Under the pieces are notes generated by a model. The model was not told the origin of the DNA and searched no databases. It was given only the letters and a program-made list of their open reading frames with translations. A program made the position numbers and the translations under genes. From Acetobacteraceae bacterium (GTDB taxonomy: Bacteria > Pseudomonadota > Alphaproteobacteria > Acetobacterales > Acetobacteraceae), in NCBI GenBank assembly GCA_003164135.1, contig PLSD01000032.1:1-64000 (forward strand): 64,000 nucleotides of DNA, given 5' to 3'. Every line of letters starts with the position of its first letter. Position 1 is the stretch's first letter. Positions 24,551-48,567 of this stretch are shown piece after piece.

Positions 24551-24667
24551 ATCTCATTGTTTTTTCAAACCAAACCCGCACAAATTGGGGTGCAAGCAAA
24601 AAATAAACCTACACTAACAATCAGTTAGCAAACTTTCCTCACAAACGCTCCACGTGAAACACCCCCA
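24551..24667. repeat. parS-containing conserved intergenic block, copy A
   Basis: This block matches 44671-44787 without gaps (offset 20,120 bp). About 69 of the 90 bases from 24581 to 24670 are identical, with runs CAAACCCGCACAAATTGGGG, TGCAAGCAAAAAAT, CACTAACAA, TTCCTCACAA and GCTCCACGTG. The region is AT-richer than the genes and sits between two convergent genes. A dyad TAAC-N5-GTTA at 24615-24627 is kept in both copies although its loop differs. The element ends against the stop codon of the host-attachment-like gene. Confidence 0.8.
24646..24661. promoter_or_regulatory. parS-like centromere site A
   Basis: CGCTCCACGTGAAACA matches the bacterial parS consensus TGTTNCACGTGNAACA at 14 of 16 positions, with a perfect right half (CACGTGAAACA). 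ParB-CTP clamps load at such sites. The two mismatches lie in the left arm, so binding may be weaker than at the second copy. Confidence 0.6.
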
Positions 24668-25105
24668 TCACAGCAGCGGCTCGCGATGCACCGGCCGCAC
24701 CCATTCCTTAATATGCGGCCACAAATCATGGTCAGAGACTTTTCCCAAATCCTTAGCCAGCGTGCCAATCACCTTCGCCGCCGCCACATTGTTCAAATCC
24801 TTGCGGATCACATTCAAAACATGAACCGGCGCAACCACAACCAACTCGTCATATGCAGCAACATCATCATTCAACTGCTTGGCCACCCAGGCGGCAAACT
24901 CCTCCTTCTCCTGCCCATGCGGATCATGCGTCGGCGCCTGTGCATGGTGCGTACCGGCATCATGCTGCCCAGCCGCCGCCTTATGCGCATCCTCGGGTTT
25001 CACCCGGCTGCTCGAATGCAAGGTATTATCCTCCTCCCCCGGACGGATAAAACGCGCATGCCCGCCATCGGCAACAACAAAGAGCAACTTGAGATGCTTA
25101 GACAT
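24668..25105 (-). CDS. host-attachment-type protein (AtsE-like)
   Basis: Encodes 145 residues. The features fit the small family first linked to plant attachment in Agrobacterium: an N-terminal strand LKLLFVVADGGHARF, a central variable His-rich loop (HHAQAPTHDPHGQE), FAAWVAKQLND, ELVVVAPVHVLNVIRKDL and a C-terminal KVSDHDLWPHIKEW. The fold resembles RNase-H/eRF1-like domains, and the biochemical role is not known. A GGAAT site precedes the ATG. It is probably its own unit. Confidence 0.82.
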   Translation of the reverse strand: MSKHLKLLFVVADGGHARFIRPGEEDNTLHSSSRVKPEDAHKAAAGQHDAGTHHAQAPTHDPHGQEKEEFAAWVAKQLNDDVAAYDELVVVAPVHVLNVIRKDLNNVAAAKVIGTLAKDLGKVSDHDLWPHIKEWVRPVHREPLL

Positions 25106-44670: not shown

Positions 44671-44787
44671 TTTTCGTTGTTTTTCCGACACAAACCCGCA
44701 CAAATTGGGGTGCAAGCAAAAAATTCTACCGCACTAACAACGTGTTATAACCACTTCCTCACAAGTGCTCCACGTGGAACACCCCCA
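44671..44787. repeat. parS-containing conserved intergenic block, copy B
   Basis: Second copy of the block at 24551-24667, same orientation, ungapped over at least 100 bp. It lies between the HEPN-like gene and the convergent ABC-F gene and ends 6 bp before the ABC-F stop. The dyad TAAC-N5-GTTA at 44735-44747 is conserved. A short frame (44547-44750) running into it has no coding character. Confidence 0.8.
44766..44781. promoter_or_regulatory. parS-like centromere site B
   Basis: TGCTCCACGTGGAACA matches the palindromic parS form TGTTCCACGTGGAACA at 15 of 16 positions. It is the better of the two sites. Confidence 0.68.
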
Positions 44788-44792
44788 CACCG

Positions 44793-46676
44793 TTAAATCG
44801 CCGCTTCCAATGCTGATGAAGCCTCCAGCCAAGCCTGCTCCGCCACCCCCGTCTCGCGCTTGATCGCGGCAATCCGCTGGTTGATATACGCCAGATCCTT
44901 CGCCTTCCCCGCCGAATAAATCCCAGGGTCCGCCAGCTTCTTTTCCAACAAATCCTTCTCCGCGGTCAGCTTGGCAATGCGCAGCTCCGCATCCTTCACC
45001 GCCTGGCGCAATGGCGCCGTCTTGCTCCGCGCCTCGGCGCGTTCCTTCTTGCCCTCGGCCCGGTCGTTCTTGCGCGAGTTATCGCGCGAGCCGCCACCGC
45101 TGCTCGTGCTGCCTTCCGTCACGCTGGCAGCGTAGGAGGCCAGATCGCCATCCAGCGCCGTCACCTTGCCGTTTGCCACCAGCAACAGCCGGTCCGCCAC
45201 CAAATCCACCAAATACGGATCATGCGAAATCAGCACCACCGCGCCCTCAAAATCCGCCAGTGCCCGCACCAGCGCATCGCGCGCGTCAATGTCCAGATGG
45301 TTCGTCGGCTCATCCAAAATCAGCAGATGCGGCGCATCCCGCGTCGCCAGCGCCAGCAACAACCGCGCCTTCTCGCCACCTGACATCGCGGAGACTTTGG
45401 TATTCACCCTGTCCGCATCCAACCCAAACCGCGCCGCCTGCGCCCGCACCTGCGGCGGCGTCGCTTTTGGCAGAGCGCGGGAGAGATGCTCATACGGCGT
45501 CTCGGTCATCACCAGGTCGTCCTCCTGGTGCTGCGCAAAATACCCCACGCGCAAATTCCCGGTGCGGAACTGCCGCCCGCTCAGCGGCTCCAGCCGTCCC
45601 GCCAGCAGCTTCGCCAGCGTGGATTTGCCGTTGCCGTTGGTCCCCAGCAGCGCAATGCGGTCTTCCATATCAATGCGCAGCGAAACGCCTTTCAGCACCG
45701 CCTTGCCGTCGTAGCCGATATCCACATTGTCCAAACTCAGCATCGGCGGCGCCAGCTTGTTCGGCTCGGGGAAGGAGAAGCGGGTCACCCGGTCCTCCAC
45801 GACCGACTCAATCTGCGGCATCCGCTCCAGCGCCTTAATCCGGCTCTGCGCCTGCTTGGCTTTGGCGGCCGACGCACGGAAGCGGTCGACGAATTTCTGC
45901 ATATGCGCGCGCTGGTCGGCGGCTTTTTCCGCGGCACGGCCCAGTTGCAGGGCTTTTTCGGTCTTAATGCGCACAAACTCGGCAAACCCGCCCGGCGTCA
46001 CCGTCAGCTTGCCGCCGTCCAGATGCGCAATCGCCTCCACCGCGCGGTCCAGCAACTGCCGGTCATGGCTCACCAGCAGCACCGCACCGGGGAATTTGCT
46101 CAAATACTGTTCCAGCCAGAGTGTTGCCTCCAAATCCAGATGGTTGGTCGGCTCATCGAGCAGCAACAGGTCCGGTGCCGAAAACAGCACCGCCGCCAGC
46201 GCCACGCGCATGCGCCAGCCACCGGAGAAGCTGCTCATCGGCCGGCTCTGCCATTCCGTGGAGAACCCCAGGCCCGACAAAATCGCCGCCGCCCGCGCCG
46301 GGGCCGCATCGGCTTCAATCGTCAACAAACGGTCATGGATTTCGGCAATCCGGTGCGGGTCCACCTCGTGGTGCTCAACCTCCTCCATCAGCGCCGTGCG
46401 CTCGGTATCGGCCTTCAGCACCACTTCCAGCGGCGTCACATCGCCCCCCGGAGCCTCCTGCGCCACATAACCCAGCCTTACCCGCTGGCCAAAGCGAATA
46501 CTCCCGCCATCGGGCTGCAGCTCCCCTGCGATCAGCTTCAGCAGCGTGGACTTGCCCGCCCCGTTGCGGCCGATCAGGCCAATGCGGCGGCCAGGGTCCA
46601 CCAAAAGGTTGGCGCGGTCCAATAGGGCGCGGCCGGCAATACTGTAGGACAGGTTCTCTAAACTTAAAACGCTCAT
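44793..46676 (-). CDS. ABC-F family ATPase (YheS/Uup-like)
   Basis: Encodes 627 residues. There are two ABC domains without membrane segments: [14 protein letters not shown] with [14 protein letters not shown] and [12 protein letters not shown], then [14 protein letters not shown] with [15 protein letters not shown] and [12 protein letters not shown]. The inter-domain linker (about 225-300) is the P-site tRNA interaction motif region, and a C-terminal coiled coil ([30 protein letters not shown]) is present. ABC-F proteins act on ribosomes during stalled or difficult translation. The first signature has GGW instead of GGQ/E, common in this subgroup. Single-gene unit. Confidence 0.94.
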
Positions 46677-46783
46677 GCGCCCCCTCTACAGCGCGCCAGA
46701 GGGCTTGCACACCCTGCAAGGCTTGCGGAGCCTGGCTTGCCCCGCTATTCCCCGGCCACAATCACTTAAAGGCACCTAGTATC

Positions 46784-47206
46784 ATGGCAATCGAACGCAC
46801 CCTCTCCATTATCAAACCCGACGCGACCCGCCGCAACCTGACCGGCAAGATCAACAACAAGTTCGAGGAAGCCGGCCTGCGCATTATCGCCACCCGCCGC
46901 CTGCAGCTCACCCAGGCCCAGGCCGAGGCGTTCTACGCCGTCCACTCGCACCGCCCGTTCTATGGCGACCTGGTCAGCTTCATGATCTCCGGCCCGGTTG
47001 TGGCGCAGGTGCTGGAAGGCGAGAGCGCCATTGTGCAGAACCGCGACATCATGGGCGCCACCGACCCGAAGAAGGCCGACGCGGGCACCATCCGCGCCGA
47101 TTTCGCTGAGTCGATCGAAGCCAACTCCGTGCATGGCTCCGACAGCCCGGAAGCCGCCGCGCAGGAAATCTCCTTTTTCTTCGCCGGCATCGACATCACC
47201 GCTTAA
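46784..47206 (+). CDS. ndk: nucleoside diphosphate kinase
   Basis: Encodes 140 residues from [18 protein letters not shown]. The active site is intact: KPDA, the phosphohistidine in [12 protein letters not shown] and [21 protein letters not shown]. It balances nucleoside triphosphate pools. The upstream reading frame is only an open shadow of the ABC-F gene. The convergent neighbour glmU ends 74 bp away, and a GC-rich hairpin (GCAGGGGG / CCCCCCTGC, about 47219-47243) lies in the gap, without a T tract. Confidence 0.97.
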
Positions 47207-47280
47207 GTTTTGTGCCTTTGCAGGGGGTTAACGCCCCCCCTGCCGCCGGTTATCACCAGTTTTTTGCGCCGCGGCGCCCG

Positions 47281-48567
47281 TTACTGCGGGCGCTTCGCCT
47301 TGGTGACTTGCCGGGCCCGGCCAAGTGCCAGCGTATTGGGCGGCACATCCTCGGTGAGCGTGGACCCCGCCGCCACCAGCGCGTTATCGCCCACGGTAAT
47401 GGGCGCCACCAGGGCGGTGTTGGAGCCGATGAAGGCCCGCGCACCGATTTTGGTTTTGTGCTTGGCGTTGCCGTCATAATTGCAGGTGATGGTACCGGCG
47501 CCGATGTTCGTGCCGGGGCCGATTTCGGCGTCGCCGATGTAGCTCAGGTGGTTGGCTTTGGCGCCCGCACCCAGTGTCGCGGCTTTGATTTCGACGAAAT
47601 TGCCGACATGCGCGCCGGGGCCGATGTCAGCGCCGGGGCGCAGCCGGGCGTAGGGGCCGATGACGGCGCCGGCATGCACAATGCAGCCCTCCAGGTGCGA
47701 AAAAGCCTTGATTTCAGCACCGGATTCCACGGTGACGCCAGGCCCGAACACGACATAAGGCCCCACAATGACATCAGCCCCAAGCAGCGTATCGGCGGAG
47801 AAGAACACGGTGTCGGGCGCGAGCATGGAGACGCCGGACTCCAGCGCATTTTCGCGCAGCCGGGTTTGCAGGGCGGCCTCGGCGGCGGCGAGTTCGGCGC
47901 GGGAGTTGATGCCCATGCATTCGGCGTAGGGGGCCTCGAAGGCGGCGACTTTCACGCCCTCAGCCCGCGCGATTTCCACTATGTCGGTGAGGTAGTATTC
48001 GCCCTTGGCGTTCTCAGCTTTCACCGCGGCCAGCCAGCGGCGCATGTCGGCGGCGGGGGCGGCCATGCCGCCGGCGTTGCACAAAGTAATGCGGCGTTCT
48101 TGCGGCGTGGCGTCGGCGTATTCCACGATGCGGGCGACGTAGCCGCCCTCCATCACCAGGCGGCCGTATTTGCCGGCATCGGGGGGCGTCATGGCCAGCA
48201 GCACCAGCCCGGCGTCACCGGCCTGCGCGCGGGCGAGCAGGGCCTGCATGGTGGCCACCGAGACCAGGGGGTTGTCGGCGTAGAAAATCGCGACGAGGCC
48301 CTGCCCAAATTTGTGTTCCGCCTGGTTGGCGGCATGGGCGGTGCCCAGGCGCTCGGCCTGCACCACCACGCCGTGCGGCGCGGCCAGGGCCTCAAGTGCC
48401 GGCATGTCCGGGCCGAGCACGACGACCACGCGGTCAAACACTTCTTCCGCCGCCATGGTGATGTGGCGCAGCATTTCGCGCCCCGCCAGTTTGTGCGCGG
48501 CTTTGGGGAGGGTGGATTTCATCCGTGTGCCGAGCCCGGCGGCGATGATGACGGCGGTGTTTTCCAT
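47281..48567 (-). CDS. glmU: bifunctional GlcNAc-1-phosphate uridyltransferase / glucosamine-1-phosphate acetyltransferase
   Basis: Encodes 428 residues. The N-terminal nucleotidyltransferase has IIAAGLGTRMKSTLPKAAHKLAGREML, and FYADNPLVS is the metal-site region. The C-terminal half is a left-handed beta helix of hexapeptide repeats (VIVGPYVVFGPGVTVESGAEI, AVIGPYARLRPGADIGPGAHVGNFVEIKAATLG), ending in NTALVAPITVGDNALVAAGSTLTEDVP. It makes UDP-GlcNAc for peptidoglycan and LPS. It is slightly shorter than E. coli GlmU (456). It is the last gene of the minus-strand run that begins with the chorismate mutase. Confidence 0.96.
   Translation of the reverse strand: MENTAVIIAAGLGTRMKSTLPKAAHKLAGREMLRHITMAAEEVFDRVVVVLGPDMPALEALAAPHGVVVQAERLGTAHAANQAEHKFGQGLVAIFYADNPLVSVATMQALLARAQAGDAGLVLLAMTPPDAGKYGRLVMEGGYVARIVEYADATPQERRITLCNAGGMAAPAADMRRWLAAVKAENAKGEYYLTDIVEIARAEGVKVAAFEAPYAECMGINSRAELAAAEAALQTRLRENALESGVSMLAPDTVFFSADTLLGADVIVGPYVVFGPGVTVESGAEIKAFSHLEGCIVHAGAVIGPYARLRPGADIGPGAHVGNFVEIKAATLGAGAKANHLSYIGDAEIGPGTNIGAGTITCNYDGNAKHKTKIGARAFIGSNTALVAPITVGDNALVAAGSTLTEDVPPNTLALGRARQVTKAKRPQ

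Follow-up and report, generated by a model that had tools for sequence, protein, structure and literature searches.

A dispersed 112-bp element with a parS-like palindrome in Acidocella and its possible relationship to replication start zones

Introduction

In the present study, we asked why a parS-like palindrome in an Acidocella genome is embedded in a long conserved block that recurs on the same contig. The window, the whole stretch of 64,000 nucleotides analysed here (positions 1 to 64,000 of contig PLSD01000032.1, assembly GCA_003164135.1, Acetobacteraceae), carries the palindrome CGCTCCACGTGAAACA at 24646-24661, with 2 mismatches to the parS consensus TGTTNCACGTGNAACA. Two textbook rules are at stake, namely, the location of parS sites close to a single origin and the possession of just one origin by a bacterial chromosome. 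The block belongs to a 112-bp element dispersed in several Acidocella genomes, and the best overall explanation, to which we assign a probability of approximately one half, is that its copies are dispersed composite centromere elements marking accessory replication start zones.

If the copies do mark start zones, Acidocella would be a bacterial test case for the single-origin rule and for a ParABS system with many centromeres. If they are ParB sites only, the question would be how extra parS sites, which are costly at some positions in Caulobacter according to the passage concerned of PMC5815017, became tolerated and conserved. Both questions are addressable in the named element-bearing strain Acidocella aquatica NBRC 112502. 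The listings covered by our literature search contained no report of an Acidocella parS, of dispersed parS of this kind, or of a multi-origin or multicentric Acidocella chromosome.

Copy number and dispersal of the element

As the initial annotation had described, the palindrome at 24646-24661 matches parS at 14 of 16 positions and lies in an ungapped block of ~115 bp that recurs in the same orientation at an offset of 20,120 bp. The second palindrome (44766-44781) has 1 mismatch to TGTTNCACGTGNAACA. The bare motif is unremarkable: allowing 3 mismatches, the window holds 4 sites where 1.56 would be expected, and 8 of 100 shuffles reach 4; thus, it is the repeated block that stands out, and a lone parS-like motif would not by itself.

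The window site had been regarded as the first of two copies, a count that is far too low. In the genome to which the window belongs (G000, hereafter the own genome; 4,415,081 bases in 137 contigs), a 17-mer of the block, CAAATTGGGGTGCAAGC, occurs 22 times exactly, 12 times with one mismatch, and once with two, and at up to 3 mismatches there are 44 matches against 3+3 for the reversed control. The palindrome stands at a constant offset in 33 of these 35 copies, one of them with the core CATGTG; one of the remaining two is cut by a contig end and the other holds a short N run. A 36th copy, at C76:39840, runs into a contig end without reaching the 17-mer. The total is at least 36 copies on 26 contigs with a summed size of 1,862,623 bases (1.86 Mb), the contigs being unordered. 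The smallest spacing on one contig is 20.1 kb, which is that of the window pair, and both orientations occur on one contig in the 17-mer search. A centromere of two copies is ruled out by the copy number, and a mixture of two genomes is argued against by a contamination of 5.43 and completeness of 100.

Few copies, all near the origin, had been anticipated from a genome-wide search for the block, and no such clustering was observed on these 26 contigs. The parB contig of the own genome (C55) has no 17-mer match, and the elements nearest to parS/parB on contig C67 of A. aquatica are ~106 and 132 kb distant. The own genome has 19 exact parS sites, of which one is located at parB. The copies thus appear to be scattered over the chromosome, with the reservation that contigs are unordered, and this is the outcome that the initial annotation had named as counting against its proposal. 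Such dispersal seems to refute a centromere confined to the origin and leaves ParB binding untouched.

In a set of 150 family members with a completeness of at least 90%, the own genome has TGYTNCACGTGNARCA 30 times, one other has it 10 times, and each of the remainder has it at most 6 times. The core box (up to 1 mismatch) is present 12-35 times in 6 of 38 Acidocella genomes, namely, G000, G002 (A. aquatica), G009, G019 (metagenome-assembled genome (MAG) ZJ2.bin62), G024 (MAG JA2.bin15), and G032, with a single match in two further genomes and none in 30; these matches were counted by box, and some were not read as whole elements. All matching records are from Acidocella (A. aquatica NBRC 112502 and MAGs), apart from one Acidiphilium iwatense locus (L107, one composite match), which was excluded from the counts. 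The flank is conserved across species, an outcome that the initial annotation had named as supporting a composite element: it occurs in several Acidocella genomes, and 18 loci are common to the own genome and others.

Anatomy and gene context

A consensus was derived from 78 of 86 places, 5 having been dropped because they were too near an end and 3 because they lacked a CACGTG-like core; the conservation of the core is partly by construction for the latter reason. Information content over the 78 copies sets the limits of the element at -27 to +84 around the C of CAAATTGGGG, or 112 bp, with a mean of 1.34 bits/position inside against 0.08 and 0.15 in the flanks. The consensus runs from a T-rich left box through CAAACCCGCACAAATTGGGGTGCAAG, an A-tract, CTAACA...GTTA, and CCTCACAA to the palindrome, followed by CCCC. 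The larger composite element envisaged by the initial annotation is hence recognisable as a conserved 112-bp unit with boxes A, B, and C plus the palindrome. The features of the window are as follows.

24554..24665, + strand: composite element copy 1 (112 bp), limits from information content over 78 copies
24554..24567, + strand: box A, the T-rich left end, reading TCATTGTTTTTTCA in this copy (elsewhere commonly TCATTCCTTTTCCG or TCGTTGTTTTTTCG)
24571..24597, + strand: box B, CAAACCCGCACAAATTGGGGTGCAAGC, including the most conserved stretch; contains GCAC-N8-GTGC
24581-24597 (copy 1) and 44701-44717 (copy 2): 17-mer CAAATTGGGGTGCAAGC
24615..24627, + strand: box C, TAAC-N5-GTTA dyad (alternative reading TAA-N7-TTA)
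24646..24661, + strand: parS-like palindrome of copy 1, 2 mismatches
24668..25105, - strand: Host_attach / baeRF family 12 gene (Pfam), 3' end adjoining the parS side of copy 1
44674..44785, + strand: composite element copy 2
44691..44717, + strand: box B of copy 2
44735..44747, + strand: box C dyad of copy 2
44766..44781, + strand: parS-like palindrome of copy 2, 1 mismatch
44793..46676, - strand: ABC transporter gene with two ABC_tran stretches (Pfam), 3' end adjoining the parS side of copy 2
46000..48500, no strand: minus-to-plus GC-skew switch, with the lowest cumulative value near 47 kb

The arrangement with neighbouring genes is general. The parS side adjoins the stop codon of an inward-reading frame in 31 of 34 own copies (median gap of 7 bp), and such a frame is also present in 32 of 35 copies of other species, against 23.6% of random window positions. 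An Rfam search of window positions 23001-48000 gave no RNA family match up to an E value of 1.

The palindrome core is CACGTG in most of the copies read; the exceptions are CATGTG (one own copy), CCCGTG (four copies, G009 and G032), and a few disrupted cores. The CCCGTG cores are at L055, L058, L064, and L070, and two elements, at L049 (G032:C23) and L052 (G009:C65), are apparently interrupted or have their right half exchanged for another sequence. At L102, L013, and L120, the symmetry of the palindrome reaches about 28-32 bp, e.g., GCGCAAGTGCTTCACGTGAAGCACTTGCGC.

The palindrome as a parS site

The parS site linked to parB is TGTTTCACGTGAAACA in the own genome, TGCTTCACGTGAAGCA in A. aquatica, and TGCTCCACGTGGAGCA in G009, G032, G019, and G024. 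Element cores were compared with these sites in 86 rows. The core GTTTCACGTGAAAC was present in 15 of the 35 own rows and absent from the 51 others, and GCTTCACGTGAAGC was present in 10 of the 14 A. aquatica rows and absent from the other 72; one TGCTTCACGTGAAGCA was found in G024, at an element outside the 86 rows. The core GCTCCACGTGGAGC occupies 8 of 8 ZJ2.bin62, 4 of 4 STC_51, 6 of 8 MAG 20, and 5 of 8 JA2.bin15 rows (one locus twice), the parB-linked parS of STC_51 and MAG 20 not having been seen, and it also turns up in the own genome (4 of 35 rows) and in A. aquatica (1 of 14). Moreover, the 18 loci common to the own genome and at least one other bear the differing palindrome of each species. 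Three points weigh against this correspondence: GCTCCACGTGGAGC is present in just 1 of 5 G009 rows and 0 of 4 G032 rows, in which CCCGTG cores and disrupted copies occur; the match of the own palindromes to the parB-linked parS is imperfect (15 of 35); and the sole column of the ParB alignment that separates TGTT from TGCT genomes misfits the own genome. The ParB recognition region reads KSRVHIN in the own genome, KSRGHIN in A. aquatica, and KSRGHIG in G009, and these differences are suggestive with regard to ParB binding.

The agreement with the parB-linked site, species by species, is in favour of the parS identity proposed by the initial annotation, and the element palindrome may be considered a well-supported candidate for a true parS that tends to follow the parB-linked parS of each species. 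Matches above the parB_part cut-off were one each in G002, G009, G019, and G024 and three each in G000 and G032. Since four of the element-bearing genomes possess one ParB each, no common paralogue serves the elements, and this family cut-off search revealed no ParB paralogue common to element-bearing genomes. As judged from these sequences, it is very probable that ParB encoded by the chromosomal parB loads at the parS end of the element.

Two further observations concern parS sites. At L147 (G000:C55), exact DnaA boxes TTATNCACA, at 1171 and 1423, neighbour the parB-linked parS at 1189, which has C-rich palindromic extensions, with no dyad or box B in the stretch examined. In the block-free genomes G033, G010, and G005, exact TGTTCCACGTGGAACA sites number 6-12 and are distributed over several contigs, a few of these sites forming tandems next to parB.

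The dyad as a probable second protein site

Block-free Acidocella genomes, of which one parS site per genome was read, provide a comparison for the dyad of box C. Proximity to parB was called by a motif search in 3-kb loci, and one site classed as away from parB, that of G010, is ~2 kb from parB by a separate search. An exact TAAC-N5-GTTA lies within 35 bp on either side of parS in 8 of 12 sites away from parB and in 0 of 13 parB-near sites, against a background of 1 in 65,380 bases outside those sites. The looser TAA-N7-TTA within 110 bp is found in 8 of 12 away sites and in 6 of 13 parB-near sites; being present in both groups, it leaves the exact dyad alone in separating them.

The initial annotation had pointed to the dyad and to the possibility of additional protein sites, and this is strengthened by the exact dyad accompanying parS away from parB even without the rest of the block. 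A second protein site at the dyad is likely, and the binding of at least one additional DNA-binding protein to the element, at the dyad and perhaps also at the CAAACCCGCACAAATTGGGGTGCAAG box, is quite probable. The CtrA boxes of Alphaproteobacteria are TTAA-N7-TTAA. The element dyad resembles them in that it may also be read as TAA-N7-TTA and differs from them in its outer bases.

GC skew around the elements

In the window, GC skew changes sign, rising from roughly -0.2 to +0.2; its cumulative value is lowest near 47 kb, and the best split lies 2.6 kb beyond copy 2 in the direction of its parS end. Over the 5 kb adjoining the non-parS side, 40 of 40 rows of other species (some loci twice) have a negative skew, as do 26 of 32 own rows; the corresponding counts for the parS side are 28 of 39 and 30 of 34, respectively, and, with both own flanks pooled, 31 of 35 are negative. 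The mean profile oriented by the element (39 distinct loci of five other species) shows little change, near -0.15, until the element and then climbs, from -0.16 to zero by +2 kb on the parS side. Of 15 testable loci, several of which are mutual orthologues, 13 have their best upward split between +1.3 and +2.6 kb; the far side of the split is positive in 10 of these 13 and less negative in 3.

A strand-biased 9-mer, counted 118 versus 4 times in skew-oriented bins of the element-free genome G020 and 25 versus 1 times in own and A. aquatica loci, was used as a second measure. Its map covers the first 100 of 170 places in the own genome and the first 100 of 155 in A. aquatica, in which 30 elements on 22 contigs were viewable, and the following counts apply among the matches listed. 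The polarity was as expected in 24 elements out of 26. Matches flanked 19 elements on either side; 10 of these elements are in minus-to-plus gaps, which make up 28% of the length (p 0.02), and 1 is in a plus-to-minus gap. Three up-switches are present on a 370-kb A. aquatica contig: one coincides with an element, another is placed at the parB-linked parS or up to 20 kb past it, and a third lies 12-18 kb from an element. One origin as the explanation of element polarity was ruled out by changes in orientation within contigs. A k-mer search for a shared motif at the skew step in element-bearing species gave coding-type words only and no CCACA-type arrays.

A number of these results do not fit a simple link between the element and a skew switch. 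The step is offset from the element and not on it, and copy 1 of the window is at no step. The mean profile beyond +2 kb stays near zero and never reaches +0.15, while the own 2.4-kb flanks are still at -0.10 at +2 kb. On the 9-mer map, 2 of the 26 elements are exceptions to the polarity and 8 of the 19 two-sided elements lie in gaps without a sign change, again among the matches listed. The element at 267.5 kb of C67 in A. aquatica, a locus missed by the search pattern, has its switch 12-18 kb away, and the eight dyad and parS pairs of block-free genomes exhibit no polarity (left flank negative in 4 of 8).

Proposed explanation

Strand skew that is independent of genes is usually caused by replication, and repeated up-switches accordingly suggest repeated fork divergence. 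The skew itself was observed, and we infer that it marks replication. Since the elements lie near switches in a fixed orientation and carry ParB sites, we propose that they are accessory start zones with their own centromeres. The block in the window would be one copy of a dispersed composite centromere element. ParB would load at its parS end, while a second DNA-binding protein may occupy the TAAC-N5-GTTA dyad and perhaps a third the CAAACCCGCACAAATTGGGGTGCAAG box. The element would be fixed in orientation to GC skew, usually a few kb from the point at which forks diverge on an evolutionary average. Each accessory start zone would thereby possess a ParB-loading site of its own, and DNA copied from many places would be handed to ParA and SMC at many places.

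The individual parts of this proposal differ in strength. That the elements are accessory replication start zones is tentative, with somewhat less than even odds. The broader concept is slightly more doubtful: a polycentric, multi-origin Acidocella chromosome with dozens of start zones in the manner of eukaryotes or archaea, in which one lineage has a ParB-loading centromere and a site for a cell-cycle regulator in each zone, is a possibility to which we give somewhat less credence.

Skew in an element-free genome and in family controls

G020, of which 2.29 Mb out of about 2.7 Mb was read and 2.25 Mb was scanned, lacks the composite element and carries a single parS. Its contigs C4 (L159, L173, L227-L262) and C6 (L161, L175, L263-L291) each show a sawtooth GC skew with several sharp minus-to-plus steps. 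Steps beyond 0.12 number 14 up and 11 down; beyond 0.2, local extremes number 12 up and 2 down, and rises are therefore sharper than falls. Among 2097 window steps, 71 up and 15 down exceed 0.2, and sign changes are 13 up and 9 down. Transcription-driven skew was ruled out for C4 and C6 because genes of both strands share one trend, with third-position signs differing in some bins, mostly near a sign change. Several up-steps per contig are seen here, unlike in two family controls, of which G154 (13 words) has a single up-switch with parS inside, while G179 is noisier with broadly one switch.

Up-steps in G020 coincide with repeats: 11 of 14 have one of the 15 densest AACCACA / AACCCACA-type arrays, which are intergenic and often inverted, no more than 3.2 kb away, and the mean skew is antisymmetric around those 11 arrays. 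The array words were selected with knowledge of a k-mer search around steps, in which CCACACAAACCC appeared in 5 of 14 neighbourhoods, and the association is thus partly by selection; the 15th densest array is tied with others. With anagram control words, 1 of the top 25 arrays is near a step. Of 28 own element loci placed on G020 through a mapped neighbour, 6 are no more than 3 kb from one of 14 arrays against 1.5 expected, a count of 6 being reached in 10 of 2000 shifts, and two of these six are at arrays without a called step. Relative to called steps, there are 4 own loci against 1.4 expected (78 of 2000 shifts reach 4). The local gene order is too broken for own loci to be mapped onto G020 for their distance between origin and terminus.

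This genome also supplies evidence unfavourable to the proposed start zones. Its up-steps occur without parS, which is thus not required for a step, and there is no C- or G-flanked dyad near the 11 arrays. Co-orientation of genes with skew is weak (493 of 918 genes; 16 of 27 tRNAs). The only exact three-box DnaA cluster in the G020 sequence read (C8:91345-91445) is ~7 kb from parS, and the switch is 16 kb away. Exact DnaA boxes (TTATNCACA) occur just once in 86 element windows (up to 170 bp), and none were found in the G020 arrays.

Several of these points would be expected if the elements were dispersed ParB/SMC-loading sites that organise or segregate the chromosome and do not start replication, the skew having another cause and the elements being tolerated or needed nearby. 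The ParB site is well supported, the step is 1.3-2.6 kb off the element, DnaA boxes are almost absent from elements, and the element-free G020 has its steps without parS. We nevertheless regard this explanation as unlikely because the orientation of the element and its offset to the step recur across species and because own loci are found near G020 arrays more often than expected (6 of 28 against 1.5; 10 of 2000 shifts).

A chromosome with a single origin that has been scrambled by inversions, in which the elements are polar signposts similar to FtsK-orienting sequences or the end points of inversions and the skew is a mosaic, would account for element polarity, for both orientations on one contig, and for the down-steps and downward sign changes of G020 (11 beyond 0.12, and 9). 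Inversions are expected to give equal sharpness both ways, which is at variance with the 12 up and 2 down beyond 0.2 and the 71 versus 15 of 2097, and with a repeat array at most G020 up-steps, and we consider such a history improbable.

Comparison with known systems

The account of a ParABS review, in the passage concerned, is of 1 to 20-23 parS sites, the latter near the origin (PMC7333895). The element resembles a chromosomal parS of this system in its 16-bp CACGTG-centred palindrome matching the parB-side parS; it differs in its at least 36 copies on 26 contigs and in its 112-bp block with a fixed second dyad. In the part of a Caulobacter study that concerns placement, a second parS cluster was best tolerated within ~500 kb around ori and was disfavoured mid-arm (PMC5815017).

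Noc-binding sites (NBS) are many and dispersed. The elements share with them the dispersal of sites for a ParB-family protein, while they carry parS and not the NBS sequence, and no second ParB-type protein is common to element-bearing genomes. Noc of Bacillus is described, in the relevant portion of the source, as a ParB-family protein with its own genome-wide site set (PMC7383237).

Regarding replication, multiple origins are known in archaea. The present data resemble multiple-origin proposals in the several skew switches per chromosome or large contig, and the elements differ from a bacterial oriC in lacking a DnaA-box cluster; a minus-to-plus switch is usually near the element, offset and with exceptions. 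For bacteria, an editorial mentions, in the section concerned, a few in silico proposals of multiple origins and asynchronous origins in Synechocystis, and origins are not paired with parS within that section (PMC4705448). Laboratory Agrobacterium tumefaciens C58 has a dicentric chromosome with two essential origins, as stated in the excerpted text of PMC11514494. The two fused replicons of that strain bring different systems, unlike the tens of copies of one element here.

Flanking sequence and genomic islands

On the non-parS side, the own flanks have a low GC content (mean of 0.564 against 0.631). Among the fetched own loci, the parS-side neighbour alone is common to other species in 14, both neighbours in 4, and the other side alone in 0. 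For 17 of 35 own loci, no counterpart was present in the loci fetched from other species, which represent a part of the copies of those species. Five of ten scanned open reading frames in the non-parS flank match anti-phage defence families (a type IIG enzyme, Mrr-type, NsnA/GmrSD-type, AriA-like, and a D12 methyltransferase). These features would fit an attachment site or hot spot for genomic islands in which the ParB palindrome is incidental, neighbour sharing being confined to the parS side or extending to both. We judge this very improbable on several grounds: most other genomes sampled have a similar GC content on both flanks (G009 is an exception, with 0.581 against 0.651), both sides are shared in 25 of 49 matched pairs, and successive copies do not regularly bracket islands; moreover, the element adjoins the parS-side stop codon (median own gap of 7 bp), which would direct insertions mostly to the other side.

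Least probable of all is a mobile or amplified repeat of the miniature inverted-repeat transposable element or repetitive extragenic palindromic type with a chance parS-like palindrome, which the 112-bp size, the many copies, and their location in gaps with a parS-side gene reading toward the element might suggest and which is opposed by the 18 loci common between species with differing palindromes, by a consensus without terminal inverted repeats (its ends are TCATT... and ...CACCCC by eye), and by dyad and parS pairs without the rest of the block in other lineages.

Two minor observations on the flanks may be added. In the own loci L009-L041, the non-parS flank often appears foreign, with a GC content of 0.41-0.51 in ten loci (L029, with a flank under 100 bp, left out) and neighbours not common to other species. 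At L039, the right flank shows, by eye, that the element is just downstream of a gene with an apparently glmS-like C-terminus, glmS being the usual attachment place of Tn7.
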